Positions 200 through 19,072 of a DNA stretch of 19,480 bases are shown one piece after another. Source of the stretch: Vicinamibacteria bacterium (GTDB taxonomy: Bacteria > Acidobacteriota > Vicinamibacteria > Vicinamibacterales > UBA2999). Made by a program: the position numbers and the translations under genes. Below the pieces are notes generated by a model. The model searched no databases. It had not been told where the DNA came from and worked only from the letters and a program-made list of their open reading frames with translations. The DNA lies in NCBI GenBank assembly GCA_025938035.1, contig JAICQE010000073.1:1-19480 (forward strand). The letters are read 5' to 3'. Numbering within the stretch: position 1 is the stretch's first letter; every line of letters starts with the position of its first letter.

Positions 200-215
200 G
201 CTTTCACCGGAAAGC
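200..215 (+). other. Small perfect hairpin after rpmF
   Basis: GCTTTC (200-205) pairs perfectly with GAAAGC (210-215) across a 4-nt loop, 11 nt after the rpmF stop. No T-run follows, so it is not a classical intrinsic terminator. Its last base touches the larger octad hairpin at 215-290, so the two stems could stack. Confidence 0.4.
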
Positions 216-290
216 GACACACAGAGACACCGAGACACCGAGGACGTTTTCAAGCATCTGATCTCGGTGCCTCAGTGCCTCGGTGTGTCG
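215..290 (+). repeat. Octad hairpin repeat upstream of plsX (CACNGAGN type)
   Basis: The left arm 215-242 and right arm 263-290 are reverse complements at 24 of 28 positions, separated by a 20-nt AT-richer loop (243-262). Each arm is a tandem array of 8-nt units: the left reads CACAGAGA, CACCGAGA, CACCGAGG. The element ends 14 nt before the plsX GTG. It is the same unit family as 4607-4672 and 16776-16845. Confidence 0.85.
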
Positions 291-304
291 TCGGCGGTGA
301 TCGT

Positions 305-1309
305 GTGATCCGCATTGCGGTCGACGCGATGGGCGGTGATCACGCCCCGGATACCATGGTCGACGGCGCCGTTGCCGCCGCGCGGCACCTGGAGGCCGAG
401 ATCCTGCTCGTCGGCGCGCGGGATCGGATCGAAGCGGCGCTCCTGCCGCACCTCCACGCCGGGCGCCAGCGCATCCGCGTCGTCGACGCTCCTGAAGTCG
501 TGGAAATGACCGAGGCGCCCGCGGCCGCCCTCCGCCGGAAACGGCGGGCGTCGGTCCGCGTGGCCGCCGAATGCGTGGCGAAGGGCGAGGCCGTTGCGCT
601 GGTCAGTGCCGGACATACCGGCGCCTCCGTCATGGCCGCCTATTCCGCCTTCGGAACGCTCGCCGGCGTCGATCGGCCTGCCCTGGCGACCACCATCCCC
701 ACTCGCACGAGCCCCGCCGTGCTGCTCGACGCCGGTGCCAGCGTCGAATGCCGGCCGCAGCATCTCCTGCAGTTTGCGGTCATGGGCGGTGTGTACGCCC
801 GTGTGGCGCTGGGCGCGCCGAACCCGCGTGTGGGTCTGCTCTCGATCGGCGAGGAAGCCAACAAGGGCAACGAACTGACGCGCGAGGCGCATCGCCTGCT
901 GAAGCAGGCGCCGATCAACTTCGTCGGCAACGTCGAGGGCCGGGAGATTTACAGCGGCGTGGCCGACGTCATCGTCTGCGACGGCTTCACGGGAAACATC
1001 GTGCTCAAGACGAGCGAAGGGCTCGTCGAGGCGGTGGAGACGCTGCTCGGGGACGAGCTGCAGGGGACGTTTTCCAGTCAGGTTGGATATCTGTTGTCCC
1101 GCCGGGCGTTTCGCCGCTTCCGCCGGCGCGTGGACTACTCGGAGTACGGCGGCGCCATCCTGCTGGGTGTTGCCGGCCTGGCCGTGGTGTGCCACGGCCG
1201 CTCGTCGGCGAAAGCGGTTCGCAACGCCATCGCGATGGCCTACCGCTTCGCGTCCAGCGATTTCATTCATCGCGTCGAACGTGAGATCGCGGCGGCGGCC
1301 GTCTCGTGA
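305..1309 (+). CDS. plsX: Phosphate acyltransferase PlsX
   Basis: Converts acyl-ACP plus phosphate to acyl-phosphate, the acyl donor for PlsY in phosphatidic acid synthesis; peripheral membrane enzyme. From the GTG at 305 the product is 334 residues, typical of the family. It opens IRIAVDAMGGDHAP (residues 2-15), and carries LSIGEEANKGNE near 180-190 and CDGFTGN from Cys225, all PlsX hallmarks. An upstream in-frame GTG at 275 is rejected because it lies inside the octad hairpin and would add ten non-homologous residues. GGCGGTGA just before 305 is a weak ribosome binding site. The gene overlaps fabD by 4 nt (GTGA), implying coupled translation. No fabH sits between plsX and fabD, where it commonly occurs. 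Confidence 0.96.
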   Translation: MIRIAVDAMGGDHAPDTMVDGAVAAARHLEAEILLVGARDRIEAALLPHLHAGRQRIRVVDAPEVVEMTEAPAAALRRKRRASVRVAAECVAKGEAVALVSAGHTGASVMAAYSAFGTLAGVDRPALATTIPTRTSPAVLLDAGASVECRPQHLLQFAVMGGVYARVALGAPNPRVGLLSIGEEANKGNELTREAHRLLKQAPINFVGNVEGREIYSGVADVIVCDGFTGNIVLKTSEGLVEAVETLLGDELQGTFSSQVGYLLSRRAFRRFRRRVDYSEYGGAILLGVAGLAVVCHGRSSAKAVRNAIAMAYRFASSDFIHRVEREIAAAAVS

Positions 1310-2250
1310 TCGCGTTCATCTTTCCAGGGCAGGGTTCCCAGAGAGTCGGGATGGGGCGCGAGCTTGCTGACGCGTATCCCGCTGCCCGCCACGCGTTCGC
1401 GGAGGCCGACGCTGCTTTTGGCGACGGCAGTGACTCCAGGCATCTGAGCGAGCTGTGTTTTCACGGCCCGGAGGATCAGCTGACGCTGACGGAGACGACG
1501 CAGGCGGCCATTCTTGCCGTCAGCACGGCCGCCTGTCGCGTCCTCGTCGAGCATGGCGTAGAGCCTGCGTTTGTCGCCGGTCACAGCCTCGGCGAATACT
1601 CGGCCAACGTTGCGGCCGGCACATTCGAATTCGGCGACGCGGTGGCGACGGTCCGGCGGCGCGGACGCTACATGCAGGAGGCGGTTCCCGTCGGCACCGG
1701 TGCGATGGCCGCGATCCTGGGCAGCGACGTGGACACCGTGACACGGGCCTGCGAGGAAGCTGCGGGCGGCGAGGTGGTCAGTCCGGCGAACATCAATGGG
1801 CCCGGGCAGGTCGTCATCGCGGGCGCTGCGGCTGCCGTTCAACGGGCGTGCGAGCGGGCGAGGGCGCTCGGGGCGAAACGGGCAGTGCCGCTGTCGGTCA
1901 GCGCCCCATTCCACTGCGCGCTGATGAAGCCGGCTGAAGATCGCCTGGCGCCCGAGCTGCGGGCGCTCCCGGTCCGCGCCCCGCGCGTCCCGGTGGTTGC
2001 CAACGTCGACGCCGAGCCGAAGCGCGATGCGGCGGCCGCCATCGAGGCGCTCGTCCGCCAGGTATCGGCGCCCGTCCGCTGGGAAGCGGTGGTCCGCCGC
2101 CTTGCGTCCGAGGGCGTTACTACGTATGTTGAGGTAGGCCCGGGAACGGTGCTGAGCGGTCTCGTTAAGAAAATCCACCCGGATTCACGCATAGTCTCGT
2201 TCGGGTCGCCGGCGGATCTCGCCGCGGTCGTCGCTGCATGCTCGACTTAG
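1306..2250 (+). CDS. fabD: Malonyl-CoA:ACP transacylase FabD
   Basis: Transfers malonyl from CoA to acyl carrier protein, supplying the extender unit for fatty acid elongation in the cytoplasm. The product is 314 residues, normal for FabD. It opens IAFIFPGQGSQ (residues 2-12). The nucleophile elbow GHSLGEYSA places the catalytic Ser at 94, and SAPFHCALM gives the catalytic His at 203. The QAAI segment is near 66-69. The GTG start at 1306 overlaps the plsX stop in GTGA and no separate ribosome binding site is visible, so translation is probably coupled. Its 3' end overlaps fabG by 13 nt. Every catalytic residue I looked for is present. Confidence 0.96.
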   Translation: MIAFIFPGQGSQRVGMGRELADAYPAARHAFAEADAAFGDGSDSRHLSELCFHGPEDQLTLTETTQAAILAVSTAACRVLVEHGVEPAFVAGHSLGEYSANVAAGTFEFGDAVATVRRRGRYMQEAVPVGTGAMAAILGSDVDTVTRACEEAAGGEVVSPANINGPGQVVIAGAAAAVQRACERARALGAKRAVPLSVSAPFHCALMKPAEDRLAPELRALPVRAPRVPVVANVDAEPKRDAAAAIEALVRQVSAPVRWEAVVRRLASEGVTTYVEVGPGTVLSGLVKKIHPDSRIVSFGSPADLAAVVAACST

Positions 2251-2978
2251 CCGGAAAGATTGCGATCGTGACGGGCGCCTCGCGCGGCATCGGCCGTGCG
2301 ATCGCGCACACGCTTGCGGCCCGCGGCGCCGTGGTCGTTGCGGCGGCGCGCGGTGAGCACTCCGCCGCCACGGTGGCCGAGATTCGCGAGGCGGGACGGC
2401 AGGCCGAAGCCGGATCCGTTGACGTCACCGACGCCGCGTCCGTCGACGCGCTGGTTGCCGGTGTGCTGGAGCGCCACCAGCGCATCGATATCCTCGTCAA
2501 CAACGCCGGCATCACGCGCGATCAGCTGATGCTGCGGATGAAGCGCGACGACTGGGATCAGGTGCTGTCCACGAATCTGACGGCGGCGTTCACGTGCGTG
2601 CAGGCGGTGTTGAAGCCGATGATCAAGCAGCGCAGCGGCCGCATCATCAGCATCAGCTCCGTCGTCGGACAGATGGGCAATGCGGGGCAGGTGAACTACG
2701 CCGCGTCAAAGGCCGGACTGATCGGGTTCAGCAAGGCGCTCGCGCGCGAAGTCGCGTCCCGCAACATCACCGTGAACGTCGTGACGCCGGGATTGGTCGA
2801 CACGGACATGACGAAGGCGATCACAGACAAGGCGCAGGCCGATTGGGCGTCCGCAATTCCGCTCGGCCGCCTCGGAACGGCGGAGGAAGTCGCCGCGGCC
2901 GTCTGTTTCCTGGCCTCGGATGAGGCGGCGTATATTACAGGGCACGTACTCGCCGTTAATGGCGGTATGTACATGTGA
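2238..2978 (+). CDS. fabG: 3-oxoacyl-ACP reductase FabG
   Basis: NADPH-dependent reductase of the 3-ketoacyl-ACP intermediate in fatty acid elongation. It is a 246-residue short-chain dehydrogenase. The cofactor loop TGASRGIG is at residues 12-19, NNAG at 88-91, and the catalytic triad is Ser141, Tyr154 and Lys158 (YAASK). The C-terminal GHVLAVNGGMYM is typical of FabG and argues against a generic short-chain dehydrogenase. The ATG at 2238 lies inside the end of fabD, giving a 13-nt overlap. The 101-nt gap to acpP is largely filled by a heptad hairpin, so acpP may be expressed partly independently. Confidence 0.96.
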   Translation: MLDLAGKIAIVTGASRGIGRAIAHTLAARGAVVVAAARGEHSAATVAEIREAGRQAEAGSVDVTDAASVDALVAGVLERHQRIDILVNNAGITRDQLMLRMKRDDWDQVLSTNLTAAFTCVQAVLKPMIKQRSGRIISISSVVGQMGNAGQVNYAASKAGLIGFSKALAREVASRNITVNVVTPGLVDTDMTKAITDKAQADWASAIPLGRLGTAEEVAAAVCFLASDEAAYITGHVLAVNGGMYM

Positions 2979-2990
2979 GGGCGTGTAAGG

Positions 2991-3053
2991 CAAAAGTCAA
3001 AAGGCAAAGGTCAAAAGATCTTTTGCCTTTTGCCTTTTGACTTTTGACTTTCA
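2991..3053 (+). repeat. Heptad hairpin repeat upstream of acpP (CAAAAGN type)
   Basis: Nine consecutive 7-nt units run without a register slip. Four CAAAAGN-type units fill 2991-3018. Five complementary units of the NCTTTTG type fill 3019-3053, the last imperfect. Arms 2991-3018 and 3019-3046 match as reverse complements at 26 of 28 positions with no spacer at the centre (CAAAAGATCTTTTG, 3012-3025). The element begins 12 nt after the fabG stop and ends 26 nt before acpP, leaving the acpP ribosome binding site free. It is strikingly AT-rich against flanking GC-rich genes. Confidence 0.9.
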
Positions 3054-3069
3054 AGTTTCACTTGGAACC

Positions 3070-3079
3070 GGAGGAATAG
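3070..3079 (+). promoter_or_regulatory. Strong ribosome binding site of acpP
   Basis: GGAGGA at 3070-3075 with short spacing to the ATG at 3080. This is the clearest Shine-Dalgarno sequence in the window, in keeping with the very high ACP output cells need. It lies just outside the preceding hairpin, so it stays accessible when the hairpin folds. Confidence 0.8.
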
Positions 3080-3322
3080 ATGGCAGTCGCAGACAAGGTG
3101 AAGAGCATCATCGTCGAGCAGCTGGGCGTGGACGAGGAAGAAGTGACGCCGGACGCGTCGTTCGTCGACGATCTCGGCGCCGACTCGCTCGACACGGTGG
3201 AGCTCGTCATGGCGTTCGAAGAGGAGTTCGGGATCGAGATTCCGGACGAGGACGCCGAGAAGATCACCCGCGTGAAGGAAGCCATCGAGTACATCGAGGC
3301 CCACGGCAAGGGCAAGAAGTAG
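3080..3322 (+). CDS. acpP: Acyl carrier protein
   Basis: Carries growing acyl chains on a 4'-phosphopantetheine arm for FabD, FabF, FabG and PlsX. It is an acidic 80-residue protein. The prosthetic group attaches at Ser36 in [14 protein letters not shown], the canonical position. The helix II-III region [15 protein letters not shown] follows. The start is set by the strong GGAGGA site. The lysine-rich tail GKGKK is slightly longer than in E. coli ACP. It sits between fabG and fabF as in the standard cluster, with 31 nt to fabF. Confidence 0.98.
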
Positions 3323-3344
3323 TTTCGGGCCGAGTCCCTGGAAT

Positions 3345-3353
3345 GGAGCAGCG
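3345..3353 (+). promoter_or_regulatory. Ribosome binding site deciding the fabF TTG start
   Basis: GGAG at 3345-3348 lies 5 nt before TTG 3354. Together with the expected FabF N-terminus (NRRVVITGIG) it supports a rare TTG start. Confidence 0.55.
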
Positions 3354-4595
3354 TTGAACAGGCGGGTCGTCATTACCGGCATCGGACTGGTGTCGGCGCT
3401 CGGTCTCGGCACGCGCGAGACGTGGGTGGCACTGCTGGCCGGGCAGAGCGGCGTCACGCGGGTCACGCGCTTCGACATCACCGGCTACGCGGCGCAGATC
3501 GCCGCCGAGGTCAAGGGCTTCGACCCGCTCAACTGGATCGAGAAGAAGGACATCAAGAAGATGGACCTCTTCATCCAGTATTCGATCGCGGCGGCGCAGT
3601 TCGCGATGGACGATGCGAAGCTGACGATCACGCCGGAGATCGCGCCCGACGTCGGCGCCTTCATCGGCTCCGGCATCGGCGGGTTCATCACCATCGAACG
3701 CGAGCACGAGGCGCTGCTCAAAGGCGGGCCGCGGAAAATATCGCCGTTCTTCATTCCGTCGGCGATCATCAACCTGGCGTCGGGCCAGGTGTCGATCCGG
3801 TTCGGGGCCAAGGGGCCCAACCTGGCGACGTGCACCGCGTGCTCGGCGTCGGCGCATGCGGTCGGCGAGTCGTACGAGATCATCAAGCGCGGCGACGCGA
3901 CGGCGATGATTGCCGGCGGCTCCGAGGCGGCGATCACGCCGATGAGCCTCGGCGGGTTCGCGCAGCTGCGGGCGCTCTCGACCCGGAACGACGCGCCGGA
4001 GCGCGCCAGCCGGCCGTTCGACGTCGATCGCGACGGCTTCATCATCGGCGAGGGGGCGGGCGTCCTGATCCTCGAGGAGCTGGAACACGCCCGGCAGCGC
4101 GGCGCGACAATCTACGCGGAGATCGTCGGCTACGGCTCGACGTCCGATGCGTACCACATGACCGCGCCGTCCGAGGACGGCGACGGCGCGCGGCGGGTCA
4201 TGGCGATGGCGATCCGCAAGGCGGGGGTCGCACCCGACCAGGTGGATTACATCAACGCCCACGGCACCTCGACCCCCTACAACGACAAGCTGGAAACGCT
4301 CGCCATCAAGAACTGCTTCGGCGAGCACGCCCGGAAGCTGGCGATTTCCTCCACCAAGTCGATGACCGGTCACCTTCTCGGCGGGGCCGGCGGGCTCGAG
4401 GCCGGGATTTCGGCGCTGGCGGTCTTTCACGACGAGGTGCCGCCGACGATCAACCTCGACAATCCCGATCCGGAGTGCGATCTCGACTACGTCCCGCACA
4501 AGAGCCGGAAGATGCCGGTTCGCTACGCGCTCTCGAACTCCTTCGGTTTCGGTGGCACGAACGCTGCTTTGCTGTTCAAGAAGTACGAAGGCTGA
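3354..4595 (+). CDS. fabF: 3-oxoacyl-ACP synthase II FabF
   Basis: Condenses acyl-ACP with malonyl-ACP to elongate fatty acids. The 413-residue product matches FabF length and begins MNRRVVITGIGLVSALG from a TTG start backed by GGAG. The catalytic triad falls at the textbook positions: Cys163 (TACSAS), His303 (NAHGTSTPYND) and His340 (TGHLLGGAGG). The glycine-rich NSFGFGGTNA is near the C-terminus. It is the last gene of the fatty acid synthesis run. The next gap holds an octad hairpin, and electron transfer flavoprotein genes follow in the same direction. Because fabH is absent here, this is the only condensing enzyme in the window. Confidence 0.97.
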   Translation: MNRRVVITGIGLVSALGLGTRETWVALLAGQSGVTRVTRFDITGYAAQIAAEVKGFDPLNWIEKKDIKKMDLFIQYSIAAAQFAMDDAKLTITPEIAPDVGAFIGSGIGGFITIEREHEALLKGGPRKISPFFIPSAIINLASGQVSIRFGAKGPNLATCTACSASAHAVGESYEIIKRGDATAMIAGGSEAAITPMSLGGFAQLRALSTRNDAPERASRPFDVDRDGFIIGEGAGVLILEELEHARQRGATIYAEIVGYGSTSDAYHMTAPSEDGDGARRVMAMAIRKAGVAPDQVDYINAHGTSTPYNDKLETLAIKNCFGEHARKLAISSTKSMTGHLLGGAGGLEAGISALAVFHDEVPPTINLDNPDPECDLDYVPHKSRKMPVRYALSNSFGFGGTNAALLFKKYEG

Positions 4596-4606
4596 TATCC
4601 GAAATC

Positions 4607-4672
4607 GCCACGGAGGCACGGAAACACGGAGCATAAACAGGATTCTTCTCCGTGCCTCGGTGTCTCCGTGGC
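4607..4672 (+). repeat. Octad hairpin repeat upstream of etfB (CACGGAGN type)
   Basis: Arms 4607-4631 and 4648-4672 are reverse complements at 21 of 25 positions around a 16-nt AT-rich loop (4632-4647). Each arm holds three CACGGAG-like units at an 8-nt period, with outer ends GCCACGGAG and CTCCGTGGC. It starts 11 nt after the fabF stop and ends 21 nt before etfB. The left arm contains GGAGG and the right arm CTCC, so Shine-Dalgarno-like and anti-Shine-Dalgarno-like sequences pair with each other. Confidence 0.88.
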
Positions 4673-4693
4673 CTATGAGCATGGGGCCCACGG

Positions 4694-5455
4694 ATGAAGA
4701 TTGCTGTCTGTATCAAGCAGGTCCCCACCCGGGAGTGGCAGCCGCGTCTCAACGACGACAAGACGTGGATTCGCGAGCAGGACGCCAGCTACGAGATGAA
4801 CGAGCCGGACGCCTATGCGCTCGAAGAGGCGCTGCGTCTGCGCGAGCAGCACGGCGGGGAGGTGGTTGTCTGTTCGGCCGGCCCCGCCCGCGTCCAGCAG
4901 GTGATTCGCGAGGCGCTGGCGCGCGGAGCGGACCGCGCGATCCATGTGGAAGACGATCGCCTCGCCGCCGCTGATGCGTTCGTCACGGCGGACGCCCTTG
5001 CCGCCGCGATGACCGACGAACGATTCGACCTGGTCCTGACGGGGCTGCAGTCGGACGATCAGGGCCAGGCGCAGACGGGGGTGGTGCTGGCCGAGCGGCT
5101 GGCGATGCCGCACTCGACGATCATCATGGACGTCCAGATCAGCGATTCCTCGCTGAAGGTCAAACGCGAGCTCGAAGGCGGCTGGTTCCAGTGGATCGCG
5201 ATGCCGCTGCCGGCGCTGCTGACGATCCAGAGCGGCATCAACCAACTGCGCTACGCGACGTTGAAGGGCATCATGGCGGCCAAGAAGAAGGAGATCCGGA
5301 AGGCCGCCATGCCGGCCGACCTTCGACCGAGCCAGCAGATCGTCGGCCTGGCGGTGCCGGCGCGCGCGAAACAGACGCGGCTGATCGACGGATCCGCCGG
5401 CGAGGCCGCCAAGGAGCTGACGCGCCTCCTCCGTGAAGAGGCGAGGGCGCTGTGA
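4694..5455 (+). CDS. etfB: Electron transfer flavoprotein beta subunit
   Basis: Beta subunit of the ETF heterodimer, which collects electrons from acyl-CoA and related dehydrogenases. The product is 253 residues and opens MKIAVCIKQVP. GLQSDDQGQAQTG (about 115-127) is the AMP-binding segment. VKRELEGGW followed by LLTIQSGINQLRYATLKG and IMAAKKKEI form the conserved ETF-beta signature and the loop that docks to partner dehydrogenases. The ATG at 4694 has GGGG about 9 nt upstream as a weak binding site. It overlaps etfA by 4 nt (GTGA). Placement right after the fab genes puts lipid synthesis beside the electron acceptor for lipid oxidation. Confidence 0.96.
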   Translation: MKIAVCIKQVPTREWQPRLNDDKTWIREQDASYEMNEPDAYALEEALRLREQHGGEVVVCSAGPARVQQVIREALARGADRAIHVEDDRLAAADAFVTADALAAAMTDERFDLVLTGLQSDDQGQAQTGVVLAERLAMPHSTIIMDVQISDSSLKVKRELEGGWFQWIAMPLPALLTIQSGINQLRYATLKGIMAAKKKEIRKAAMPADLRPSQQIVGLAVPARAKQTRLIDGSAGEAAKELTRLLREEARAL

Positions 5456-6441
5456 TTCTCGTCATCGCCGAGCAGCGGGACGGGAAGCTGAATCGCGCCT
5501 CGTGGGAAGCGATCGCCGCGGCGCAGGCGTTTGCCGGCTTGTCCGCCGGAGCCTCGGCGACGGCCGATCCTGTAAAAGTGGCCATCCTTGGCGCGTCGAT
5601 CGGCGCTCCCGCATCCGAGCTGGCGGCCGCGGCCGTCGCGGAGGTCCTGGTCGCGGAGAACGCAGCGTTCGCGTCGTACACGCCCGACGGCTACACGATG
5701 GGCATCAGCGCGCTCGTGGATCAGACGAAGCCGACCTTCGTGCTGATGCCGCACACGTATCAGACCCGCGATTGCGCTCCGGCGATTGCGGCGCGGATGC
5801 GGAAAGCGCTCATCACGGACGTCACCGGAATTTCCGGCGCCGGCGCGAACGCGACGTTCACGCGTCCGATGTTTCAGGGGAAGCTCGCCGCACAGGTGAA
5901 GCCGCTTGGCGATCCGCCATTTTTTGTCACGGTCCAGATCGGCGCCTTCCGCGCCGACGCAGTGCAAAAGGGCGGTTCCGCCCAGGTGACACCGGTGGCC
6001 GTGCCGATTGACGCCTCGGCGATCCGGCAGAAGCCGGAGCCGCCCTTTCAAGAGGCGAAGCAGGCCGTCGATCTCGGCCAGGCCGAACGCATCGTCGCCG
6101 TCGGCCGCGGCATCAAGTCGCAGGAGAACATCGCCGTCGCCGAGAAGCTGGCGAAGGCGATGGGTGCGGAGCTCGCGGCGTCGCGCCCGATCTGCGACAA
6201 CGGCTGGCTGCCGATGGAACGGCAGATCGGCAGTTCGGGTCAGACCGTGGCGCCCAAGCTGTACGTCGCGCTCGGGATCTCGGGCGCCATCCAGCATCTC
6301 GTCGGCATGAAGGGCGCGCGCACCATCGTCGCCATCAACAAGGACGCCGACGCCCCGATCTTCGAAGTCGCGGACTATGGCATTGTCGGCGATCTGTTCG
6401 AGGTCGTGCCGGCACTGATCGCCGAGCTCGAAAAGTCTTAA
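5452..6441 (+). CDS. etfA: Electron transfer flavoprotein alpha subunit
   Basis: FAD-binding partner of EtfB. The 329-residue product has an ETF N-terminal domain ([20 protein letters not shown]) and a C-terminal FAD domain. The latter contains [27 protein letters not shown], and [20 protein letters not shown], the family signature. The GTG start at 5452 overlaps etfB in GTGA, ensuring balanced subunit synthesis. The final base of its TAA stop is also the first base of the nonad repeat at 6441. The partner gene after the repeat is ETF:quinone oxidoreductase, as expected for a respiratory ETF. No bifurcating partner such as Bcd is present. Confidence 0.96.
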
Positions 6442-6520
6442 ACCGCGAAGCTCGCGAAGAAAAACTACAATTTGGGTTGTGTGCGTCGCGGCCTTCGCGT
6501 TCTTCGCGCCCTTCGCGGTT
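6441..6520 (+). repeat. Nonad hairpin repeat upstream of ETF-QO (CGCGAAGNN type)
   Basis: Left arm 6441-6460 and right arm 6501-6520 match as reverse complements at 18 of 20 positions. CGCGAAG occurs at 6444 and 6453. CTTCGCG occurs at 6493, 6502 and 6511, a strict 9-nt period. The right side has one more unit than the left. The intervening bases (from 6461) are AT-rich. The element shares a base with the etfA stop and ends 8 nt before the ETF-QO start. Confidence 0.87.
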
Positions 6521-6528
6521 GAAAACCG

Positions 6529-8181: not shown

Positions 8182-8185
8182 GGTG

Positions 8186-8212
8186 AACTCCCAAGTCCCA
8201 AAGTTGGGAGTT
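8186..8212 (+). repeat. Short heptad hairpin between ETF-QO and acyltransferase (CTCCCAA type)
   Basis: AACTCCCAA (8186-8194) and TTGGGAGTT (8204-8212) pair perfectly over 9 bp with a 9-nt loop. The loop itself begins with a second unit, GTCCCAA, at a 7-nt period (units at 8188 and 8195). It starts 4 nt after the ETF-QO stop and ends 3 nt before the chosen acyltransferase GTG. GGGAG inside the right arm (8206-8210) could be that gene's Shine-Dalgarno sequence. Confidence 0.75.
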
Positions 8213-8215
8213 GGC

Positions 8216-8890
8216 GTGAACGACTGGCGTGCGTCCGCGTGGAAGCGCGCGCAGGTGTCGCTCATCGCCGGCCTGGGATATCCGCTGATCAACATTCTGG
8301 GTCAGACCCTGCGGTTCCATGTCGAGGGCCTGCACCACTACGACGCGATCATCGCGTCCGGGCGCCAGCCGGTGATGGCCTTCTGGCACGGCCGCATTCT
8401 CCCGGCCACCTTCTACTTCCGCCGCCGCGGCATCGTCGTCATCACCAGCGAGAACTTCGACGGCGAATGGATCGCGCGAATCATCGAGCGCTTTGGCTAC
8501 GGAACCGCCAGGGGTTCGACAACGCGGGGCGGACGCCGGGCGATGGTGCAGCTGATCCGCGCGATGAGAGCGGGCAAGCCGGCCGGCTTCACGCTCGACG
8601 GACCGCGCGGGCCGGCGCACAGCGCGCAGCCCGGGGCCGTCTGGCTCGCCCATGCCACCGGAAATCCGATCCTGCCGTTTCACCTCGAGGCGGCACGCGC
8701 GTGGACGCTGCGCAGCTGGGACCGGACTCAGATTCCGAAACCGTTCACGAACGTGGCGCTGGTTGTTGGTGAGCCCATGCCCGTCGGCGCGGACGCCACC
8801 GACGCGCAGCTGGAATCTGCGCGCGTGGAGCTGGAGCAGCGGTTGGCGAATCTGGAGCGCCGCGCGCAGGAAATGGTCAGGTCCGCCTGA
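8216..8890 (+). CDS. DUF374 lysophospholipid acyltransferase family protein
   Basis: Predicted membrane-associated acyltransferase. The DUF374 branch of the LPLAT superfamily transfers acyl chains to lysophospholipids or lipid A-like acceptors; the exact substrate is unknown. From GTG 8216 the product is 224 residues. AFWHGR (His58) is the family's active-site variant. It is followed by ARGSTTRGG (98-106), TLDGPRGP (126-133), and later RSWDRTQIPKPF and VVGEPMPV. A hydrophobic N-terminal stretch lies at about 14-32. Alternative in-frame starts exist at 8171 (ATG, overlapping the ETF-QO stop) and 8183 (GTG), but both would translate through the hairpin. The stop codon lies within the left arm of the inverted repeat at 8881. 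Confidence 0.85.
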   Translation: MNDWRASAWKRAQVSLIAGLGYPLINILGQTLRFHVEGLHHYDAIIASGRQPVMAFWHGRILPATFYFRRRGIVVITSENFDGEWIARIIERFGYGTARGSTTRGGRRAMVQLIRAMRAGKPAGFTLDGPRGPAHSAQPGAVWLAHATGNPILPFHLEAARAWTLRSWDRTQIPKPFTNVALVVGEPMPVGADATDAQLESARVELEQRLANLERRAQEMVRSA

Positions 8891-8951
8891 AGGCGGACAC
8901 TACGACCGTACGGACACTACGACCGTACGTAGTGTCCGCCTTCAGGCGGAC
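8881..8951 (+). repeat. Perfect 24-bp inverted repeat around a 17-nt tandem duplication
   Basis: Arms 8881-8904 and 8928-8951 are exact reverse complements over 24 nt. Each arm contains a nested near-palindrome (GTCCGCCT, two bases, AGGCGGAC). The interior shows an exact 17-nt tandem duplication, 8894-8910 and 8911-8927 (CGGACACTACGACCGTA twice). The first copy overlaps the left arm. The element sits between two convergent genes, overlaps the acyltransferase stop codon and ends 3 nt before the stop of the opposite gene. It could act as a bidirectional transcription barrier, though no T-run is present. Confidence 0.9.
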
Positions 8952-8954
8952 TTG

Positions 8955-12558: not shown

Positions 12559-12560
12559 AG

Positions 12561-13586
12561 ATGGCGCTGACTGTTTTTGCTTCTGACCGCTTCGCGGATC
12601 ACCTCACGCCACCGGGTCACCCTGAGCGGGTGGAGCGCCATGCGGTGATGCAGGTGGTTGCCGACGAGTTTCGCAGGAATGGCGGGTCTGTCCGCGATCC
12701 AGGGCCGGCAACCCACGAGGATCTCGCGCGAATCCACGACGACAGTTACCTCACATTCCTTCGTGAAACGGCGGGCCGGGCAATCGCGCTCGATCCCGAC
12801 ACGTTTACTTCGCCCGACACGTACGACGTGGCGTGTCTCGCCGCCGGCGCCGCGGTGACGGCAGTCGATCATGTTCTCGACGCCGGCGCCGGGACGCGTG
12901 CGCTGGTGCTGGTCAGGCCGCCCGGCCACCATGCGGAACGAAACCGGGCGATGGGGTTCTGCTTCTTCAACAACATCGCCGTTGCCGCCGCCCATGCGCG
13001 GGCCCGCGGACTGTCCCGCGTGGCGATCGTCGACTACGACGTTCACCATGGCAACGGCACGCAGTGGAGTTTCTACAGCGATCCGTCGGTGCTGTTCGTG
13101 TCGTCGCATCAGTATCCCTACTACCCGGGAACAGGCGCTGCCAGCGAGGTGGGCTCCGGGGCTGGCGCCGGTTTGACGGTGAACCTCCCGCTGGCGGCTG
13201 GCGCCACCGACGCCGACTACGAACGCGCGTACGACGCAGTCGCCTGGCCGATCCTCAGGGCCTTCAAGCCGCAGCTGCTCCTGATTTCGGCGGGGTTCGA
13301 CGCCTACAAGGACGACCCGCTGGCCGGGATGCGCCTCGAAGCCGAATGCTTCGGCCGCCTGACGGCGCGGCTCGTCGCGATTGCCGACGAGTGTTGCGAC
13401 GGCCGCATCGTCGCGCTCACGGAAGGCGGGTATCACCTCCGGGGGATCGCGGACTCGCTGCGCTCGGTCATCGCGGCGTTCGAAGGCAATCGAGCGCCGG
13501 CGGCGCCGCCACAGACTGACGCTCCGCGCGGAGAGGCCGCGATCGCGGCCGTAAAACCGCACTTAGCGAAGTACTGGCCTTTATAA
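12561..13586 (+). CDS. Histone deacetylase-fold amidohydrolase (acetylpolyamine/AcuC-like)
   Basis: Predicted zinc-dependent deacetylase of the arginase/deacetylase superfamily, 341 residues. RPPGHHA (119-125) supplies the catalytic His123-His124 pair, GFCFFNN follows, and DYDVHHGNGT gives zinc ligands Asp160 and His162. SAGFDAYKDDP gives the third ligand Asp247, and EGGYH the catalytic Tyr291. All active-site residues are intact. In bacteria such proteins deacetylate polyamines, acetoin-related substrates or acetyl-lysine; the sequence alone does not choose. The ATG lies 2 nt after the molybdenum hydroxylase stop, so it is probably co-transcribed with that enzyme. A repeat begins 4 nt after its stop. 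Confidence 0.93.
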   Translation: MALTVFASDRFADHLTPPGHPERVERHAVMQVVADEFRRNGGSVRDPGPATHEDLARIHDDSYLTFLRETAGRAIALDPDTFTSPDTYDVACLAAGAAVTAVDHVLDAGAGTRALVLVRPPGHHAERNRAMGFCFFNNIAVAAAHARARGLSRVAIVDYDVHHGNGTQWSFYSDPSVLFVSSHQYPYYPGTGAASEVGSGAGAGLTVNLPLAAGATDADYERAYDAVAWPILRAFKPQLLLISAGFDAYKDDPLAGMRLEAECFGRLTARLVAIADECCDGRIVALTEGGYHLRGIADSLRSVIAAFEGNRAPAAPPQTDAPRGEAAIAAVKPHLAKYWPL

Positions 13587-13590
13587 TTAG

Positions 13591-13672
13591 AAGGCCCCGG
13601 GAATCAGGCCTCAGGCCTCAGTGCGTGCTGAGGTCTGCGGCCTGAGCCCTGTGGCCTGGGCCCTGTGGCCTT
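13591..13672 (+). repeat. Heptad hairpin repeat upstream of leuS (CTGNGGC / CAGGCCT type)
   Basis: The right side is six consecutive 7-nt units starting with CTG at 13628, 13635, 13642, 13649, 13656 and 13663, in perfect register. The left side has CAGGCCT at 13605 and 13612. The inner stem pairs 13604-13621 with 13628-13645 at 16 of 18 positions around a 6-nt loop. AAGGCC (13591-13596) also pairs with GGCCTT (13667-13672) at the base. The arms have unequal unit counts. The element fills the gap, 4 nt after the deacetylase stop and 3 nt before the leuS ATG. Confidence 0.85.
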
Positions 13673-13675
13673 CCC

Positions 13676-16222
13676 ATGCCTGACTACAAACCCCAAGATC
13701 TGGACAAGAAGTGGCAGCACCGCTGGACCCATACGCGCGCCTTTGAAGTAGAAGTCGATCCGGCCCGGCCGAAGTTCTACTGCCTCGAGATGTTCGCGTA
13801 CCCCTCAGGGCACGCGCACATGGGGCACGTCCGCAACTACAGCATCGGCGATGTGCTGGCGCGGACGAAGCGCATGCGCGGCTGCAACGTGCTGCACCCG
13901 TTTGGCTGGGACGCGTTCGGCCTGCCCGCGGAAAACGCCGCCATCAAGAGCGGAACTCACCCGGAAGCATCCACACGCGCGAACATCGCGCACATGAAGG
14001 GGCAGCTCCAGCGGCTCGGCATCAGCTACGCGTGGGAGCGCGAGCTGGCCACCTGCGACAGCGAGTACTACAAGTGGAACCAGTGGCTGTTCATCAGGAT
14101 GTTCGAGCGCGGTCTGGCCTATCGACGCCGGTCGTCGGTCAACTGGTGTCCGAGCTGCCAGACTGTTCTCGCCAACGAGCAGGTCGTTGACGGCGGCTGC
14201 TGGAGGTGCGGGACCCCGGTTGAAACGCGCGACCTCGAGCAGTGGTTCTTCCGCATCACGGCCTACGCCGACGAACTGCTCGACCAGACCCGCGACCTGA
14301 CGCAATGGCCCGAAAAGGTTCTGACGATGCAGCGGAACTGGATTGGGCGATCGGAAGGCGCTCAGCTCAGCTTCGCGGTCGACGGCGATCCGGTAACGCG
14401 TATCGAGGTGTTCACGACACGGATCGACACCATCTTCGGGGCGACGTTCGTGCTGCTCGGTCCGGAGCATCCGCTGGTGGCTCAGTTCGCCGAGCGCTCG
14501 TCGGACCCGGCGGCGTTTCGCAAGAGAGTCCAGGCGTTTCGCACGCAGGATCGCGCCGCGCGCATCAGCGGCGAAATCGAGAAAGACGGGTTCGATACGG
14601 GTGTCCGCGCCGTGAATCCGTTCACGAGCGACACGGTGCCCGTGTGGGTCGCCAATTTCGTTCTCGGTGACTACGGCACCGGTGCAGTCATGGCGGTACC
14701 GGCACACGACCAGCGCGACTTCGAGTTCGCACGCAAATTCAGCCTGCCCATCCGGGTCGTCGTCACGGCCGATGGAAAACCGCAGTCGAGCGACGCGCTG
14801 ACGGAAGCGGCCGACGCCTACGGCATGCTCGTCGACTCCGGCGAGTTCAGCGGGCTGCCGTCCGAGGACGCGCAGAGGAAGATGGTTGCGCTCGCCAGGG
14901 AGCGCGGCATTGGCGACGCGACGGTCCAGTACCGCTTGAAGGACTGGGGAATCTCGCGCCAGCGGTACTGGGGCACGCCAATTCCGATGATCTACTGCGA
15001 GAAGGACGGCACCGTCCCTGTCCCGGACGACCAGTTGCCCGTGCTGCTGCCGAAAGTCACGGAATTCACCGGCCGCGGCGATTCGCCGCTGGCGCAGGTT
15101 CCCGAATTCGTGAACGTCACGTGCCCGCAGTGCCACGGTCCGGCCCGGCGCGAGACGGACACGATGGATACGTTCGTCGATTCGTCCTGGTACTTCTACA
15201 GGTTTGCCGATCCGCGGAACGACCGGACGCCAGTCGATCCGGCGACGGTAAAGTACTGGCTGCCTGTTGATTTTTACGTTGGCGGTGTCGAGCACGCCAT
15301 CCTGCACCTGATCTACTCGCGGTTTTTTGCGCGCGTGTTCCGCGATCTGGGCCTTGTCGATCACAGCGAGCCGTTCACGCATCTGCTGACGCAGGGAATG
15401 GTGCTGAAGGACGGCGCGGTGATGTCCAAGTCGAAGGGCAACGTCGTTGACCCGGACGCGATGATGCAGAAATACGGCGCGGATGCGCTGCGGCTGTACG
15501 TGATATTCGTCGCCCCGCCTGAAAAGGAGATCGAGTGGACCGACGCCGGCATCGAGGGAAGCTTCCGCTTCCTCGCACGTGTGTGGCGGCTGGTCGACCA
15601 TTGGAACGAGACGATTGCCGGAGAAGGCATCGACAGTCCGGACGCCTGCGATTCGCTGAACGCCGACGAGAAGGCGCTGCGCCGGAAGACGCACGACACG
15701 ATCCGCCGGGTCACCGCCGACATCGAGCAGCGCCAGCAGCTCAACACCGCAGTCTCCGCCATGATGGAGCTGGTCAACGAGCTGTATGCGTTCAGCGAGA
15801 AGACCGTCACCGGCGGGCCTGCGCGGCGCGTCGACGAAGACGTGGAACACGCCGGGAAGGTAGAGCGGAAGGAAACGATCTGCGTCGTTCGTGAAGCCGT
15901 CGAGGCGCTGATCCGCATGCTGGCGCCGTTTGCGCCGCACACGGCAGAGGAAATGTGGGAAATGCTCGGCTACGACAGCGGGCTGACTGCCGCGTCCTGG
16001 CCGGAATTCAACGCCGACGTGGCGAAGGCGGACGAGATCGTGATTCCCGTCCAGGTCAACGGAAAGGTGCGCGGCAGGGTCACCGTCCCCGTCGACATCT
16101 CCGACGACGAGCTGCAGCGAATCGCCCTGGCGGACTCGGGCGTTCAGGGACACCTTGCCGGCAAGAGCGTGAAGAAGGTTGTCGTGGCGAAGGGCCGGCT
16201 GGTATCGGTGGTGGTGGGATAG
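13676..16222 (+). CDS. leuS: Leucyl-tRNA synthetase
   Basis: Charges tRNA-Leu in the cytoplasm. The 848-residue product is close to the usual length for bacterial LeuRS. The HIGH-equivalent HMGH is at 48-51, within [21 protein letters not shown] complete zinc ribbon has Cys158, Cys161, Cys175 and Cys178. The CP1 editing domain is recognisable by [13 protein letters not shown] and [24 protein letters not shown] is at 583-587. The C-terminal [14 protein letters not shown] is typical. [14 protein letters not shown] from ATG 13676 is the standard opening. The hairpin ends 3 nt before the ATG, so there is no Shine-Dalgarno sequence. It runs directly into lptE with no gap. Confidence 0.98.
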
Positions 16223-16768
16223 GTGAAACAGGTATCCGCACTGGCGTTCGTCGTCGTCAGCACAGTCGTGATATCCGGCTGCGGCTACGCATTAGCGGGT
16301 CGTGGTTCGTTCCTGCCGGCTGACATCCGCGTTGTCGGGATCCCGCTGCTTGAAAACCGCACGCCGATACAGCGCATCGATCAGGTGATCACCGAGAAGG
16401 TGCGCACGGAATTCATCGAGCGCGGGAGGAAATACGAGATCCGGCCGGCGCCGGGAGGCGCCGATGCCGTGCTGTCCGGCGCGATTACCGGCTTCGTCAG
16501 CCAGCCGGTCGGATTGGACCAGCAGCTCGCATCGGCGTCGCGATATCGATTCACCGTGACGATGCGCGTGCAGTTCACCGATTCGCGCAACGGCGAAGTG
16601 CTCTGGTCGAACGAAACGCTGACGTTCAGCGAGGAATACGACGTGCGGACGCGCAGCGGCGCGCAGCTCGAGGGCGCGGTGCTCATCGAGCAGGAAGGGC
16701 CGGCGATCGATCGCCTGGCTACGGATCTGGCGCGGTATGTCGTGTCCTCCATCTTGGAGGCCTTCTGA
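16223..16768 (+). CDS. lptE: LPS-assembly lipoprotein LptE
   Basis: Outer-membrane lipoprotein that plugs LptD and helps insert lipopolysaccharide. The 181-residue product has a lipoprotein signal: a hydrophobic run at 5-18 and lipobox VISGC with Cys20. CGYALAGRG and DIRVVGIPLLENRTP follow. Later FIERGRKYEI and the RYRFTVTMRVQFTD beta segments are typical of LptE (RlpB). GTG 16223 follows the leuS stop with zero gap, and GGTGGG at the end of leuS may serve as a binding site. The order leuS-lptE-holA is conserved in many Gram-negatives and supports the call. It implies the host makes LPS or a similar outer-membrane glycolipid. Confidence 0.88.
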   Translation: MKQVSALAFVVVSTVVISGCGYALAGRGSFLPADIRVVGIPLLENRTPIQRIDQVITEKVRTEFIERGRKYEIRPAPGGADAVLSGAITGFVSQPVGLDQQLASASRYRFTVTMRVQFTDSRNGEVLWSNETLTFSEEYDVRTRSGAQLEGAVLIEQEGPAIDRLATDLARYVVSSILEAF

Positions 16769-16775
16769 TGACCGA

Positions 16776-16845
16776 GCCACGGCGTCACCGAGGCACGGAG
16801 CAAGAATCAACGTTTCTGCACTCCGTGTGTCCGTGTCTCCGTGGC
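16776..16845 (+). repeat. Octad hairpin repeat upstream of holA (CACGGAGN type)
   Basis: Arms 16776-16800 and 16821-16845 are reverse complements at 20 of 25 positions around a 20-nt AT-richer loop (16801-16820). The 8-nt units on the right are CTCCGTGT, GTCCGTGT and CTCCGTGG. The outer ends GCCACGG/CCGTGGC match those at 4607-4672, 12 kb away, and the arms are again exactly 25 nt. It starts 7 nt after the lptE stop and ends 11 nt before holA. Confidence 0.88.
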
Positions 16846-16856
16846 CCCCTCGATTG

Positions 16857-17822
16857 ATGCCGGTCGTAACCGCTGCCGCGCTGCGCAAGGACATCGCTTC
16901 GGGCGAGACGGCACCGCTCTACGTGCTGGTTGGCGCCGACGAAGTCGAGAAGGCTGACATCGCCGCGCAATTTCTCGAACTGGTCGACGAGGGGCTGCGG
17001 GCGTTCAACGTCGATCGGTTCTACGGCGCCGACGTCTCGGCCGCGCAGGTGATCGACGCCGCCAACACCCACCCGATGATGGTGCCCAGGCGTGTCGTCG
17101 TGGTCCTCGAGGCGGAGAAGCTGCTGATCCCGAAGCGCGAGAGCAAGGCCGCGGAGGAGGACCAGGAGCGGCTCGCGGCGTTCGTCAAGTCACCAGCGCC
17201 CCATTCAACCGTCGTTCTCGTCTGCGGCGCCCTCGATCGGCGGCGCAACATCGTGAAGCTCCTGCTCAAGGAGGCACATGTCGTGGACTGCGGGACGATC
17301 GAGGACGGGGCGGACGCGGAACGCTGGGTGAAGGCGCGCGCCGCGCGCGAGCGTGTGTCGTTCGAGCCGGCGGCCGTGCGGGCGCTGATCGAACGGGCCG
17401 GGCTCGACATCGTCCGGCTGAGAGCGGCGTTCGACCGCGTGGTTCTCTACGCCCTGGGCCAGGCCACGATCACCATGGCGGACGTCCGCGAGTCCGTCCC
17501 GGCGGGCCCCGAAACGCCCGCTGACTTCGGGATCGCCAACGCGATCAGGGACAACGATGCGGCGGAAGCGCTCACGCAGCTGGCGGCGGCGCTCGATAGC
17601 GGGGCAGTGCCGGTGATGGTCCTCGGGCAGCTTCGGGTGGCGGCCGAGCGCCTGCCGAAGCCGCGCGTGCGGGCGGCCGTCGATGCGCTGTTCCGCACGG
17701 ACCTCGCCCTGAAATCGTCGGGCGGCGATCCGCGGATTCTGCTGGAACGGCTGGTGGTGGAGCTGTGCGGCGAGGCACCCCGCCGAAGCTTCAGCGGAGG
17801 CGGTCGTCCTTCACTACGCTGA
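16857..17822 (+). CDS. holA: DNA polymerase III delta subunit HolA
   Basis: Clamp-loader subunit that opens the sliding clamp during chromosome replication. From ATG 16857 the product is 321 residues, near family length. PLYVLVGADEVEK opens domain I, VVVVLEAEKLL and STVVLVCGALDRR follow, and the C-terminal DLALKSSGGDPRILLERLVV is the family's most recognisable segment. The frame is open upstream to 16737, but those codons cross the octad hairpin and lptE, so they are not credible coding sequence. A TTG at 16854 is an alternative start giving one extra residue. No Shine-Dalgarno sequence is seen. The last 9 nt overlap the 3' end of rpsT on the other strand. Confidence 0.92.
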   Translation: MPVVTAAALRKDIASGETAPLYVLVGADEVEKADIAAQFLELVDEGLRAFNVDRFYGADVSAAQVIDAANTHPMMVPRRVVVVLEAEKLLIPKRESKAAEEDQERLAAFVKSPAPHSTVVLVCGALDRRRNIVKLLLKEAHVVDCGTIEDGADAERWVKARAARERVSFEPAAVRALIERAGLDIVRLRAAFDRVVLYALGQATITMADVRESVPAGPETPADFGIANAIRDNDAAEALTQLAAALDSGAVPVMVLGQLRVAAERLPKPRVRAAVDALFRTDLALKSSGGDPRILLERLVVELCGEAPRRSFSGGGRPSLR

Positions 17823-18080
17823 CTTGGCGAGCCGCGCCGTGAGCCGTGACTTGTAGCGGCCGGCGGTGTTGCGGTGGATGATGCCCTTCGTCGCCATCTT
17901 GTCGACAATCGACACCGTCGCGCTGAGCGCCTTCTTCGCGCCGTCCACGTCGTTGGAATCGAGCGAGGCGCGGATTGCTTTCAGCGCGGTGCGCAGGCGC
18001 GATCGCAGTTCACGGTTGTGCTCCCGGCGCTTGATGTTCTGGCGGTTTGCCTTCAGGGCGGATTTCGTACGCTTGGCCAC
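17814..18080 (-). CDS. rpsT: 30S ribosomal protein S20
   Basis: Small-subunit ribosomal protein binding 16S rRNA. The 88-residue, lysine- and arginine-rich helical product fits S20. It opens AKRTKSALKANRQNIKRREHN, with KATKG-like KMATKGIIHRNTAGRYKSRL near the C-terminus. The start is GTG at 18080, with AGAGAGGA about 10 nt upstream as ribosome binding site. It is convergent with holA and shares 9 nt with it. rpsT beside holA is also seen in other bacteria. A weak promoter candidate lies upstream, after the stop of the DUF4440-like gene. Confidence 0.96.
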   Translation of the reverse strand: MAKRTKSALKANRQNIKRREHNRELRSRLRTALKAIRASLDSNDVDGAKKALSATVSIVDKMATKGIIHRNTAGRYKSRLTARLAKSA

Positions 18081-18104
18081 GGTTACTGGCGTCCTCTCTG
18101 TCTG

Positions 18105-18132
18105 ATGATCTGCTGACCCGACAAAACGTCAA
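18105..18132 (-). promoter_or_regulatory. Weak candidate promoter for rpsT
   Basis: On the minus strand TTGACG (18132 down to 18127) is followed after 16 nt by GATCAT (18110 down to 18105), a fair -35 with a poor -10. It lies in the 57-nt gap upstream of rpsT, the only sizeable co-directional gap without a tandem-unit repeat. The implied leader would be very short, so this is tentative. Confidence 0.28.
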
Positions 18133-18137
18133 TTCTA

Positions 18138-19022
18138 TCATTCACCGGGCGGATGGACGTCCATCACCACGTTCCACTGGCCGTTCCGCTCGCGCTGCCA
18201 GACGCGCACGTAAAACCCCTTCGCCGCCGGTTTCTGCGGCGGCCCGACGGTGTAACTGCCCCACGTGTAGCCGAGATCGCCCGATCGGGCCGCCTCGGCA
18301 AACCGTGAATCAATCGTCGAATAGGGTTTCTGGGTGGCCAGCCACCGCAGGGCCGCCCGGTCGCCAACGACGGGCGCCATGTTCTGCCGCAGGAAGCGCA
18401 CGCTGGCGGCAAGCCGGCCGCGATATCCCTGCGTCTGGCTGACGCGCAGGCTGCTGTTGAGCACGCCGTCGGCGGCCGACAGCGGTGGCGTCGTGTCGTC
18501 GTAGTCGCCGCTGAATCGATTCGCGACTGGCGCACGGGTGAAGCCGGCTGCAAACGGCACCGGACCCGGTGTGCTGACGCCGAAGTCCATCACCACCTTG
18601 AACGAGCCGTCGCGCTGGCGCTTCCAGAGTGACGCGTAGGTCGAATGCCGCGGCCGTCCGTTATCGCGCGACTTCCGCACGTTGCGGACCGGCCCGGTGA
18701 GATATCCCAGCTCGCCGCTCGCCGCGACGTCGCCGTAGCGCGGTTCCCAGATGAGTTGAAGATCGGCGGGCGGATCCGGGTTCTTCCTGATTTGATCTTT
18801 CGCCAGGCCGGCGCCGCCTTCAAAGCCGACCGCGTCGTCGGCGAAGAACTCCAGGAAGGCCTGTTTCCATCCAACGACCAGCGCGCGCGCGGCGAAGGCA
18901 CGCTCCGCATCGATCATCTGGGTCAGCGCTTCGGGCAGGCGGCGCTGAGTCTGCGCAGTCAGTGCGACTGCGGCAAGGAGCACAAGCGCCGGGGCGGCGA
19001 GAAGTCGGAGTCGCCAGGGCAC
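18138..19022 (-). CDS. Secreted protein with two SnoaL/DUF4440-like domains
   Basis: Unknown function. The 294-residue product has a Sec-type signal peptide (RLRLLAAPALVLLAAVALTA, cleavage probably after Ala23). Two related NTF2-like segments follow. The first (about 35-150) runs from IDAERAFAARALVVGWKQAF to ASLWKRQRDGSFKVVMDFG. The second (about 180-290) runs from LRVSQTQGYRGRLAASVRFL to VRVWQRERNGQWNVVMDVH. The closing motif W(K/Q)R(Q/E)R-(D/N)G-(S/Q)-(F/W)-(K/N)VVMD is shared, pointing to internal duplication. Such folds serve as small-molecule binding or lyase scaffolds. No catalytic residue can be assigned. The GTG start is chosen for the signal peptide. Confidence 0.78.
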   Translation of the reverse strand: MPWRLRLLAAPALVLLAAVALTAQTQRRLPEALTQMIDAERAFAARALVVGWKQAFLEFFADDAVGFEGGAGLAKDQIRKNPDPPADLQLIWEPRYGDVAASGELGYLTGPVRNVRKSRDNGRPRHSTYASLWKRQRDGSFKVVMDFGVSTPGPVPFAAGFTRAPVANRFSGDYDDTTPPLSAADGVLNSSLRVSQTQGYRGRLAASVRFLRQNMAPVVGDRAALRWLATQKPYSTIDSRFAEAARSGDLGYTWGSYTVGPPQKPAAKGFYVRVWQRERNGQWNVVMDVHPPGE

Positions 19023-19044
19023 GGCCAGATCGTAACCGGGATCG

Positions 19045-19072
19045 GTTGTCAGTTATCAGTTGTCAGTTGTCA
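19045..19072 (-). repeat. Single-arm heptad array (GTTGTCA type)
   Basis: Four 7-nt units in perfect register on the plus strand: GTTGTCA at 19045, 19059 and 19066, and GTTATCA at 19052, followed by a further GTTG. There is no complementary arm, so this looks like half an element. On the minus strand it lies between the transglycosylase stop, which is formed by bases inside the array (19070-19072), and the start of the DUF4440-like gene. Confidence 0.85.

Follow-up and report, generated by a model that had tools for sequence, protein, structure and literature searches.

Repeats between bacterial genes are usually assigned to one of two kinds, slippage-derived simple repeats or small palindromes that are mobile, and a 19,480-bp stretch of Vicinamibacteria DNA (GenBank assembly GCA_025938035.1, contig JAICQE010000073.1; hereafter the window, G+C 0.66) raises the question of how to account for elements that look like both. 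Its gene gaps hold tandem arrays of 7-, 8- or 9-nt units, most of which fold back on an inverted copy of themselves. A first-pass annotation had read these as one hairpin architecture with interchangeable units, unrelated between classes, that fills most gaps and arises independently of sequence rather than by the copying of a single mobile element. The arrays starting at 215, 4607 and 16776 belong to one family, with the 8-mer unit CACNGAGN, so that the eight arrays of the window make up six unit families and not eight; unrelated units do occur at orthologous junctions, and that part of the claim stands. The best account, which in our judgement falls somewhat short of probable, is that of a mobile hairpin scaffold combined with local rewriting of its repeat unit. 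As we would describe it, the element is an intergenic hairpin, mostly ~40–110 nt long, in which a single unit of 7, 8 or 9 nt forms an array in one arm and the inverted array in the other.

Inverted arrays of short units between genes

The occurrence of such arrays beyond the window was analysed in 39 stretches (~0.69 Mb) from 19 relatives, four of which supply 24 stretches; genes were called by a simple open reading frame (ORF) method and 316 gaps of 20–400 nt were examined. The best non-overlapping arrays in these Acidobacteriota gaps have period 7 in 32 cases, period 8 in 16 and period 9 in 4, heptamers thus exceeding both other classes, and the neighbouring periods are nearly absent: one array in all for periods 3–6, one in all for periods 10–12, and scattered ones and twos for periods 13–30. 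Shuffled gaps gave 0 to 1.4 arrays per period (0 to 0.2 at periods 7–9) and coding DNA of the same length 0 to 0.6, so that the arrays exceed chance. The period 7–9 architecture extends beyond the one contig, into relatives and, as described below, other phyla. Against shuffles, period 7–9 arrays are long simple sequence repeats in the usual sense (a tandem unit of 5–11 nt, longer than chance). An inverted partner is present in 37 of the 51 gaps with a period 7–9 array, whereas shuffling of the remaining gap sequence leads one to expect 1.5. In 37 co-directional array gaps the array lies a median of 12 nt from the stop codon and 8 nt from the next start; being near to both, the element is essentially the gap, in agreement with the earlier description of an element that fits between stop and start. 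Occupancy is another matter: at a conservative cut-off, arrays were found in 40/199 co-directional, 8/57 convergent and 7/60 divergent gaps of the relatives, and the statement that hairpin arrays fill most gaps therefore holds for the window and fails for its relatives. One relative with the same operon (G123) showed no period 7–9 array in 60 gaps and neither the 8-mer nor the 9-mer pattern genome-wide. A second set of 308 gaps lacking the 8-mer motif, from stretches chosen for containing an 8-mer hairpin, gave 20, 6 and 5 arrays at periods 7, 8 and 9, eight at period 14 and five at period 6.

In the window itself, the best period 7–9 score of each gap was compared with 500 dinucleotide shuffles and the RNA fold z-score was calculated against 200 of those. 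A period 7–9 array beyond shuffles (p ≤0.004) is present in seven of the nine gaps of at least 34 nt between co-directional genes, and an eighth array, at 8186–8212, is marginal, whilst the gap before rpsT shows none relative to shuffles (p 0.12); the first-pass count of eight arrays in nine gaps, with rpsT as the exception, thus stands together with its coordinates. Seven arrays fold back as had been described, six strongly (z −3.2 to −5.6) and that at 8186–8212 weakly, and 19045–19076 forms no hairpin. Hairpins of the CACNGAGN family separate rpmF from plsX (215..290; period 8 in both arms by Tandem Repeats Finder; p 0.002, z −4.1), fabF from etfB (4607..4672; p 0.002, z −3.8) and an lptE-like from a holA-like gene (16776..16845; p 0.002, z −4.4), and a 9-mer hairpin of the CGCGAAGNN family runs from etfA to a FixC-like gene (6442..6520; p 0.002, z −3.2). 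Heptamers form hairpins between fabG and acpP (2987..3053; AAAAGKC with the reverse complement GMCTTTT; Tandem Repeats Finder period 7/14; p 0.002, z −5.0), between a histone-deacetylase-like gene and leuS (13591..13672; TCAGGCC family; p 0.004, z −5.6) and 3' of the FixC-like gene, where a short fold-back has two units, ACTCCCA/AGTCCCA (8186..8212; p 0.040, z −1.7). The last is a direct array of GTTGTCA without inverted partner (19045..19076; Tandem Repeats Finder period 7, 92% matches; p 0.002, fold z 0.1). The acpP–fabF gap (31 nt) holds no array.

The genes of the window run in the order rpmF, plsX, fabD, fabG, acpP, fabF, etfB, etfA, the FixC-like oxidoreductase gene and an acyltransferase-like gene, with the histone-deacetylase-like gene, leuS, the lptE-like and holA-like genes and rpsT farther along. 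NCBIfam matches (ten proteins) are the basis for PlsX, FabG, FabF, LeuS and the FixC likeness; the remaining names are our own reading of the sequence, and gene bounds are our ORF calls, with uncertain starts for plsX, holA and the 8.2-kb gene. Across the window and six loci there were no Rfam matches above the curated cut-off, and in the window the sub-threshold matches were to a microRNA-hairpin and CsrC. A REP-like palindrome of another kind lies at 8881–8951 between two convergent genes, with GTCCGCCT-AGGCGGAC occurring twice, together with a 17-nt direct repeat; with one mismatch allowed, it has one match (L084) among all fetched loci.

Gene junctions with kept order and differing units

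A search of 162 genomes from the order of the Acidobacteria bin (L004, G004) gives 85% identity between the window FabF and its best relative. Of the 157 genomes matched by FabF, the 30 best were used to compare junctions. The order fabD-fabG-acpP-fabF-etfB-etfA is retained in 30/30 wherever the fetched locus covers it, and arrays were found in 28 of 187 orthologous junction instances, mostly of different families, where shuffles lead one to expect fewer than one. Between fabF and etfB, seven of the 30 relatives reach the cut-off, with CACNGAGN in three, CACGAAGNN in one and three unrelated heptamers (others were seen by eye), and the two genes abut or overlap in four relatives. Four of ten relatives reach it between the histone-deacetylase-like gene and leuS, with four families of which none matches that of the window; at etfA-fixC, where the window has its 9-mer, three of 13 show three heptamers at cut-off and further relatives have other sequence or a minimal gap. 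In case of fabG-acpP, relatives carry heptamers other than that of the window, and several have the related heptamers CTACCGA, CTACCAA and CCACCAA with both arms changed together (by eye): these paired changes are our best hint of rewriting in place. Junctions free of arrays are often minimal (≤12 nt or overlapping), as in etfB-etfA (25/27), fabD-fabG (14/16) and plsX-fabD (14/15, by a filter that omitted G127 and one other genome), and the acpP-fabF junction (window 3323–3353) has an array in 0/30 relatives, though neighbouring junctions hold them. At plsX-fabD, where 13/17 genomes overlap by 4 nt, G127 has gained a AATTGACG hairpin (L155 ~5462–5607), which alters the last PlsX residues and provides the PlsX stop codon. 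Two genomes with 81% identity over 15.9 kb (G004 and G141) have six junctions with an element in at least one of them: by eye, a related unit is present in both at one junction, different units at one, and an element in one genome only at four. Operon junctions can therefore take on unrelated units faster than the flanking genes diverge, and the comparison of orthologous gaps bears out both the common architecture and the interchangeability of its units.

Heptamers look locus-specific: 30 of the 33 classes found in the relatives at a slightly laxer cut-off are confined to one stretch each. The relatives and the 8-mer-hairpin stretches have one heptamer class in common, with 1.06 expected, and this one comes from the same genome, G004 (L004 and L177); with sharing at chance, heptamer families are not demonstrated here as cross-phylum. 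The GTTGTCA of array 19045, which is close to TAACTGA, is the heptamer of csR1.1 in Nostoc and also the unit of the etfA-fixC hairpin in G021. A GTTGTCA hairpin was found in 1/37 genomes; over the 162 genomes the exact heptamer hairpin pattern was too strict, as it missed its own source element.

Families of the 8-mer and 9-mer hairpins, with copying and insertion of the 8-mer

The 8-mer presents a different picture, its unit having six positions that are fixed and two that vary freely. In third units, which the search pattern did not demand, positions 1–3 and 5–7 are CAC and GAG at 98–100% in ~200 of 291 cases (each percentage taken where four of the other five positions match) and positions 4 and 8 are free. 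The unit beyond the matched arms, by construction one that failed the pattern, retains the motif in 25/290 and less strictly (58–82% per fixed position), and the outer ends are often TTCACCAC/GTGGTGAA (TTCAC on the left in 21 and GTGAA on the right in 26 of 164). The hairpin occurs in at least 117 stretches of named genomes. Among the matches listed are Acidobacteria, Chloroflexi, Gemmatimonadetes, Verrucomicrobia, Planctomycetes, Bacteroidetes, several Proteobacteria classes, Myxococcales, Geobacteraceae/Syntrophobacteraceae and Abditibacterium, including the isolates Azospirillum rugosum, Endozoicomonas acroporae, Roseateles oligotrophus and Lacibacter cauensis; from their genera we take these hosts to span about ten phyla. 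Counts run from 1 to 62 per genome in 33 genomes, with overlapping matches counted repeatedly, and the reversed pattern gave 0 in all 33; in the order, 23 of the 162 genomes have the 8-mer, with up to 55 counts in one genome. The 9-mer CRCGAAGNN was matched in 11/37 genomes, including a Chloroflexi (Oscillochloris), a Verrucomicrobiales, a Myxococcales and an Endozoicomonas locus known from counts alone, and in 43/162 of the order; some of the listed matches appear coding (G016, one of G015). Over the 162 genomes, 12 have both, 11 the 8-mer only, 31 the 9-mer only and 108 neither (Fisher p 0.005, Spearman 0.26, kinship ignored). The 8-mer is thus a sequence family across phyla, and the 9-mer is probably another, which overturns the claim of sequence independence for the former and probably for the latter.

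Copying within a genome is visible in G140, where 8 of the 30 listed 8-mer elements have a common loop and 18 of 435 loop pairs match, with 0.3 expected. In Azospirillum (41 genomes searched, 14 loci fetched) an element at one gene junction is present in four, absent in seven and not scored in three; the spacing of its anchors is 22–42 nt without the element and 113–118 with it, and one orthologue carries a double change that preserves pairing. Endozoicomonas (12 genomes) carries ~155-bp repeats around an 8-mer hairpin core, their inverted ends starting GGAAYTGTCC (copies at L043 914–1071, 6872–7026 and 7693–7843; several genomes of the genus give dozens of matches). Three copies are missing at exact points from G201, which is 93% identical, and two of the three also from G199; by eye, the empty sites of G201 indicate a 3-nt duplication, which is exact at one site (TTC) and imperfect at the other two. 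Outside Endozoicomonas, target-site duplication in 152 elements is at chance, with flanking direct repeats of 2 nt in 11 (null 11.4), 3 nt in 1 (3.1), 4 nt in 0 (0.7) and 5 nt in 1 (0.3). A plasmid search with one element gave no match, and the Prevotella relatives are too distant to reveal empty sites. Since 8-mer elements multiply inside genomes and their presence varies from one relative to another, the first-pass view that the arrays are not copies of one mobile element is wrong for the 8-mer in several genomes.

Three further observations concern these hairpins. A second 8-mer family, AATTNACG, is common to G127 and G140 (L155 5462, L180 12029, L181 6849, L182 17107). In L271 and L276 the hairpins appear nested by eye, with a second, outer arm pair of related units around the 8-mer element. 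Of all 4-letter words inside 63 8-/9-mer hairpins of G015 and G060–G068 (L251–L269, L270, L273–L276, L285, L289), GTAC shows the strongest enrichment (25/63 vs 5.1); this word was noticed first and counted afterwards in genomes picked for it (G015, G060, G061, G064–G068), and the count leaves out the 9-mers of G015 and G062, a single 8-mer of G064, one copy from a near-identical tandem trio in G065, one from an inverted pair in G068 and all elements of other genomes. We treat it as a lead only, the pattern being one that a common tip with exchanged arm units would give.

Proposed scaffold gain and unit rewriting, and the alternatives

Under the favoured account, a junction between genes would acquire a whole element, as a rule with no duplication of the target site (seen for the 8-mer and supposed for the rest); the element could be copied within the genome and, judging by its spread, pass between distant bacteria. 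Its unit might then be rewritten in place through one-unit slippage, with one arm templating the other via fold-back DNA synthesis, and the variant would spread through both arms. Rewriting on a retained scaffold would leave orthologous junctions with different units and make heptamers locus-specific. Elements would persist where no gene is broken, from stop codon to next start, mostly as spacers that are tolerated and may have side effects on the mRNA of the operon. Support comes from the restriction of periods, the inverted partners, the differing junctions, the minimal length of many array-free junctions, the gain in G127, the absences in Azospirillum and Endozoicomonas, the G140 loops, the 8-/9-mer co-occurrence and the array-free G123. 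It also comes from the agreement of the arms: in 150 8-mer elements they agree in register at free position 4 in 267/409 cases vs 243 expected (0/1000 within-element shuffles reach it) and more weakly at free position 8 (194/408 vs 179; 39/1000 shuffles reach it), as would be expected if one arm had once copied the other.

Several points weigh against this account. The other 22 of the 30 listed G140 loops are unrelated to each other, and what inserted precisely in Endozoicomonas is a longer element, which has inverted ends of its own. Furthermore, the between-genome correlations are uncorrected for relatedness and the genomes are mostly metagenome bins. Finally, the fixed CACNGAGN core in about ten phyla is unlike free rewriting, for which reason the 8-/9-mer and 7-mer classes may be two phenomena. 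A bolder form, which we regard as doubtful, is that many phyla own a dedicated or emergent DNA synthesis that builds and rewrites inverted arrays in steps of 7–9 nt at junctions: the hairpin and not its sequence would be inherited, the activity would be on or off between close relatives, and CACNGAGN and CRCGAAGNN would be the most successful horizontally spread variants.

Amongst the alternatives, selection on RNA structure survives best, although we consider it unlikely: hairpins would act in operon mRNA as stabilisers, processing sites, attenuators or translation insulators, the unit being free as long as a stem forms. The strong stems of the window, the inverted partner in most arrays and the compensated double change between Azospirillum orthologues are in its favour, as is an apparent preference of the multi-phylum 8-mer elements for gene 3' ends: of 166 elements, 51 are co-directional, 40 convergent and 17 divergent by crude ORF calls, with 47 inside such calls and 11 unplaced. 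However, this convergent preference is not mirrored in the gaps of the relatives, where convergent and divergent occupancy are about equal, fixed positions are kept as sequence and not via compensation, and G123 has the same operon without arrays. In transcript orientation, the free positions of 51 co-directional 8-mer elements showed equal numbers of G-U (34) and A-C (38) pairs (p 0.72), so that the wobble test lends no support to the RNA-stem selection that the first-pass annotation had suggested. We infer that the elements are tolerated spacers with possible local effects and not a regulatory code.

Plain replication slippage, with the arrays as by-products of a preferred polymerase step near 7 nt, appears rather unlikely. 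Long simple sequence repeats with units of 5–11 nt (Mrazek 2007) are, as summarised in PMC4679880, most abundant as heptamers, for which a slippage step near 7 nt was suggested; the heptamer dominance in our gaps and the location of most heptamer classes at single places fit this, as does the enrichment of 6–9 bp repeats in prokaryotic phyla described in PMC12699852. Slippage gives no inverted arms, found here in 37/51 arrays, and leaves both the fixed 8-mer core in many phyla and the presence or absence of whole elements unaccounted for; hairpin arms and cross-phylum cores are likewise not part of the PMC4679880 summary. The known heptamer arrays differ in the same respect. Short tandemly repeated repetitive (STRR) heptamers are direct repeats and are not known to have an inverted arm. 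Our arrays resemble STRR/csR1.1 of Nostoc/Anabaena in being intergenic heptamer arrays with many copies, array 19045 even having the csR1.1 unit, and are unlike STRR in their inverted partners. In Table 3 of PMC2408588, csR1.1 (ttgtcagttgtcagttgtca) is listed with 44 copies in Nostoc PCC 7120 and without a hairpin, and the inverted arms, the 8-/9-nt classes and the exchange at orthologous junctions set our elements apart from csR1.1 as described there. The TAACTGA repeats of Beggiatoaceae, cyanobacteria and Bacteroidetes, for which PMC4679880 proposes horizontal spread, are also heptamer arrays in gene gaps with a patchy distribution across distant phyla, but as described consist in the main genome of 169 direct sets and one inverted, lie mostly near start codons and have a single favoured heptamer.

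Transposition of REP-like elements by a RAYT-type (Y1) transposase, with an own recognition hairpin in each lineage, is in our estimate distinctly unlikely. Repetitive extragenic palindromic (REP) elements, bacterial interspersed mosaic elements (BIMEs) and CGTC repeats are described in PMC3733652 as 20–40 bp long with a GTAG or CGTC tag at one end, GTAG being linked to REP-associated tyrosine transposases (RAYTs). Like these, our elements are palindromic, intergenic, placed between co-directional and convergent genes, of several types per genome and without target-site duplication; unlike them, the arms are tandem 7–9-nt arrays, a feature unmentioned for REP in that description. The link to RAYTs is weak. 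Y1_Tnp was matched in 26/30 element-rich genomes (8- plus 9-mer count ≥4) vs 78/132 others (Fisher p 0.005), a comparison without control for genome size, completeness or relatedness, and G049, with 19 counted hairpins, has no Y1_Tnp match, as is true of G125, G128 and G132. Within 10 nt of 328 flanks, GTAG occurred 5 times and CGTC 0 times with ~9 expected (reversed, CTAC 1 and GACG 14); the unpaired tag beside the palindrome that marks GTAG/CGTC-tagged REPs is thus absent. The one RAYT-like gene examined (L181 15567–15893) has no array within 1.5 kb. By eye, this gene is flanked by its own long G+C-rich palindromes, which are unlike the 7–9-nt arrays. Miniature inverted-repeat transposable elements (MITEs) have terminal inverted repeats and a target-site duplication. 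The ~155-bp Endozoicomonas repeats are MITE-like in their inverted ends and exact empty sites, whilst elsewhere the elements show no target duplication and no inverted ends beyond the arms and a few palindromic bases.

Least likely of all are protein-binding iterons, by which a widespread DNA- or RNA-binding regulator would read CACNGAGN and CRCGAAGNN at putative sites: the six of eight positions kept in undemanded third units agree with this, and a similar idea was raised for the TAACTGA repeats in PMC4679880, but the 8-mer is patchy (23/162 genomes) and the heptamer units are diverse.

In the literature searched, which excluded subscription journals and preprints, six exact 8-/9-mer repeat strings had no match, the Nostoc paper was by title the only one on bacterial repeats amongst matches to repeat strings, and keyword searches led to REP, STRR, TAACTGA and simple repeats, but to no title or abstract start on hairpins that have inverted tandem arms and whose units can be exchanged. 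Hairpins of about ten phyla retain one word of 8 nt in which two letters are free, and arrays that read as open frames, as in the 47 of 166 inside crude ORF calls, can mislead metagenome gene calling. The data point to a little-known means by which intergenic DNA is added and rewritten; should the rewriting step prove real, non-coding DNA would have a new route of birth.

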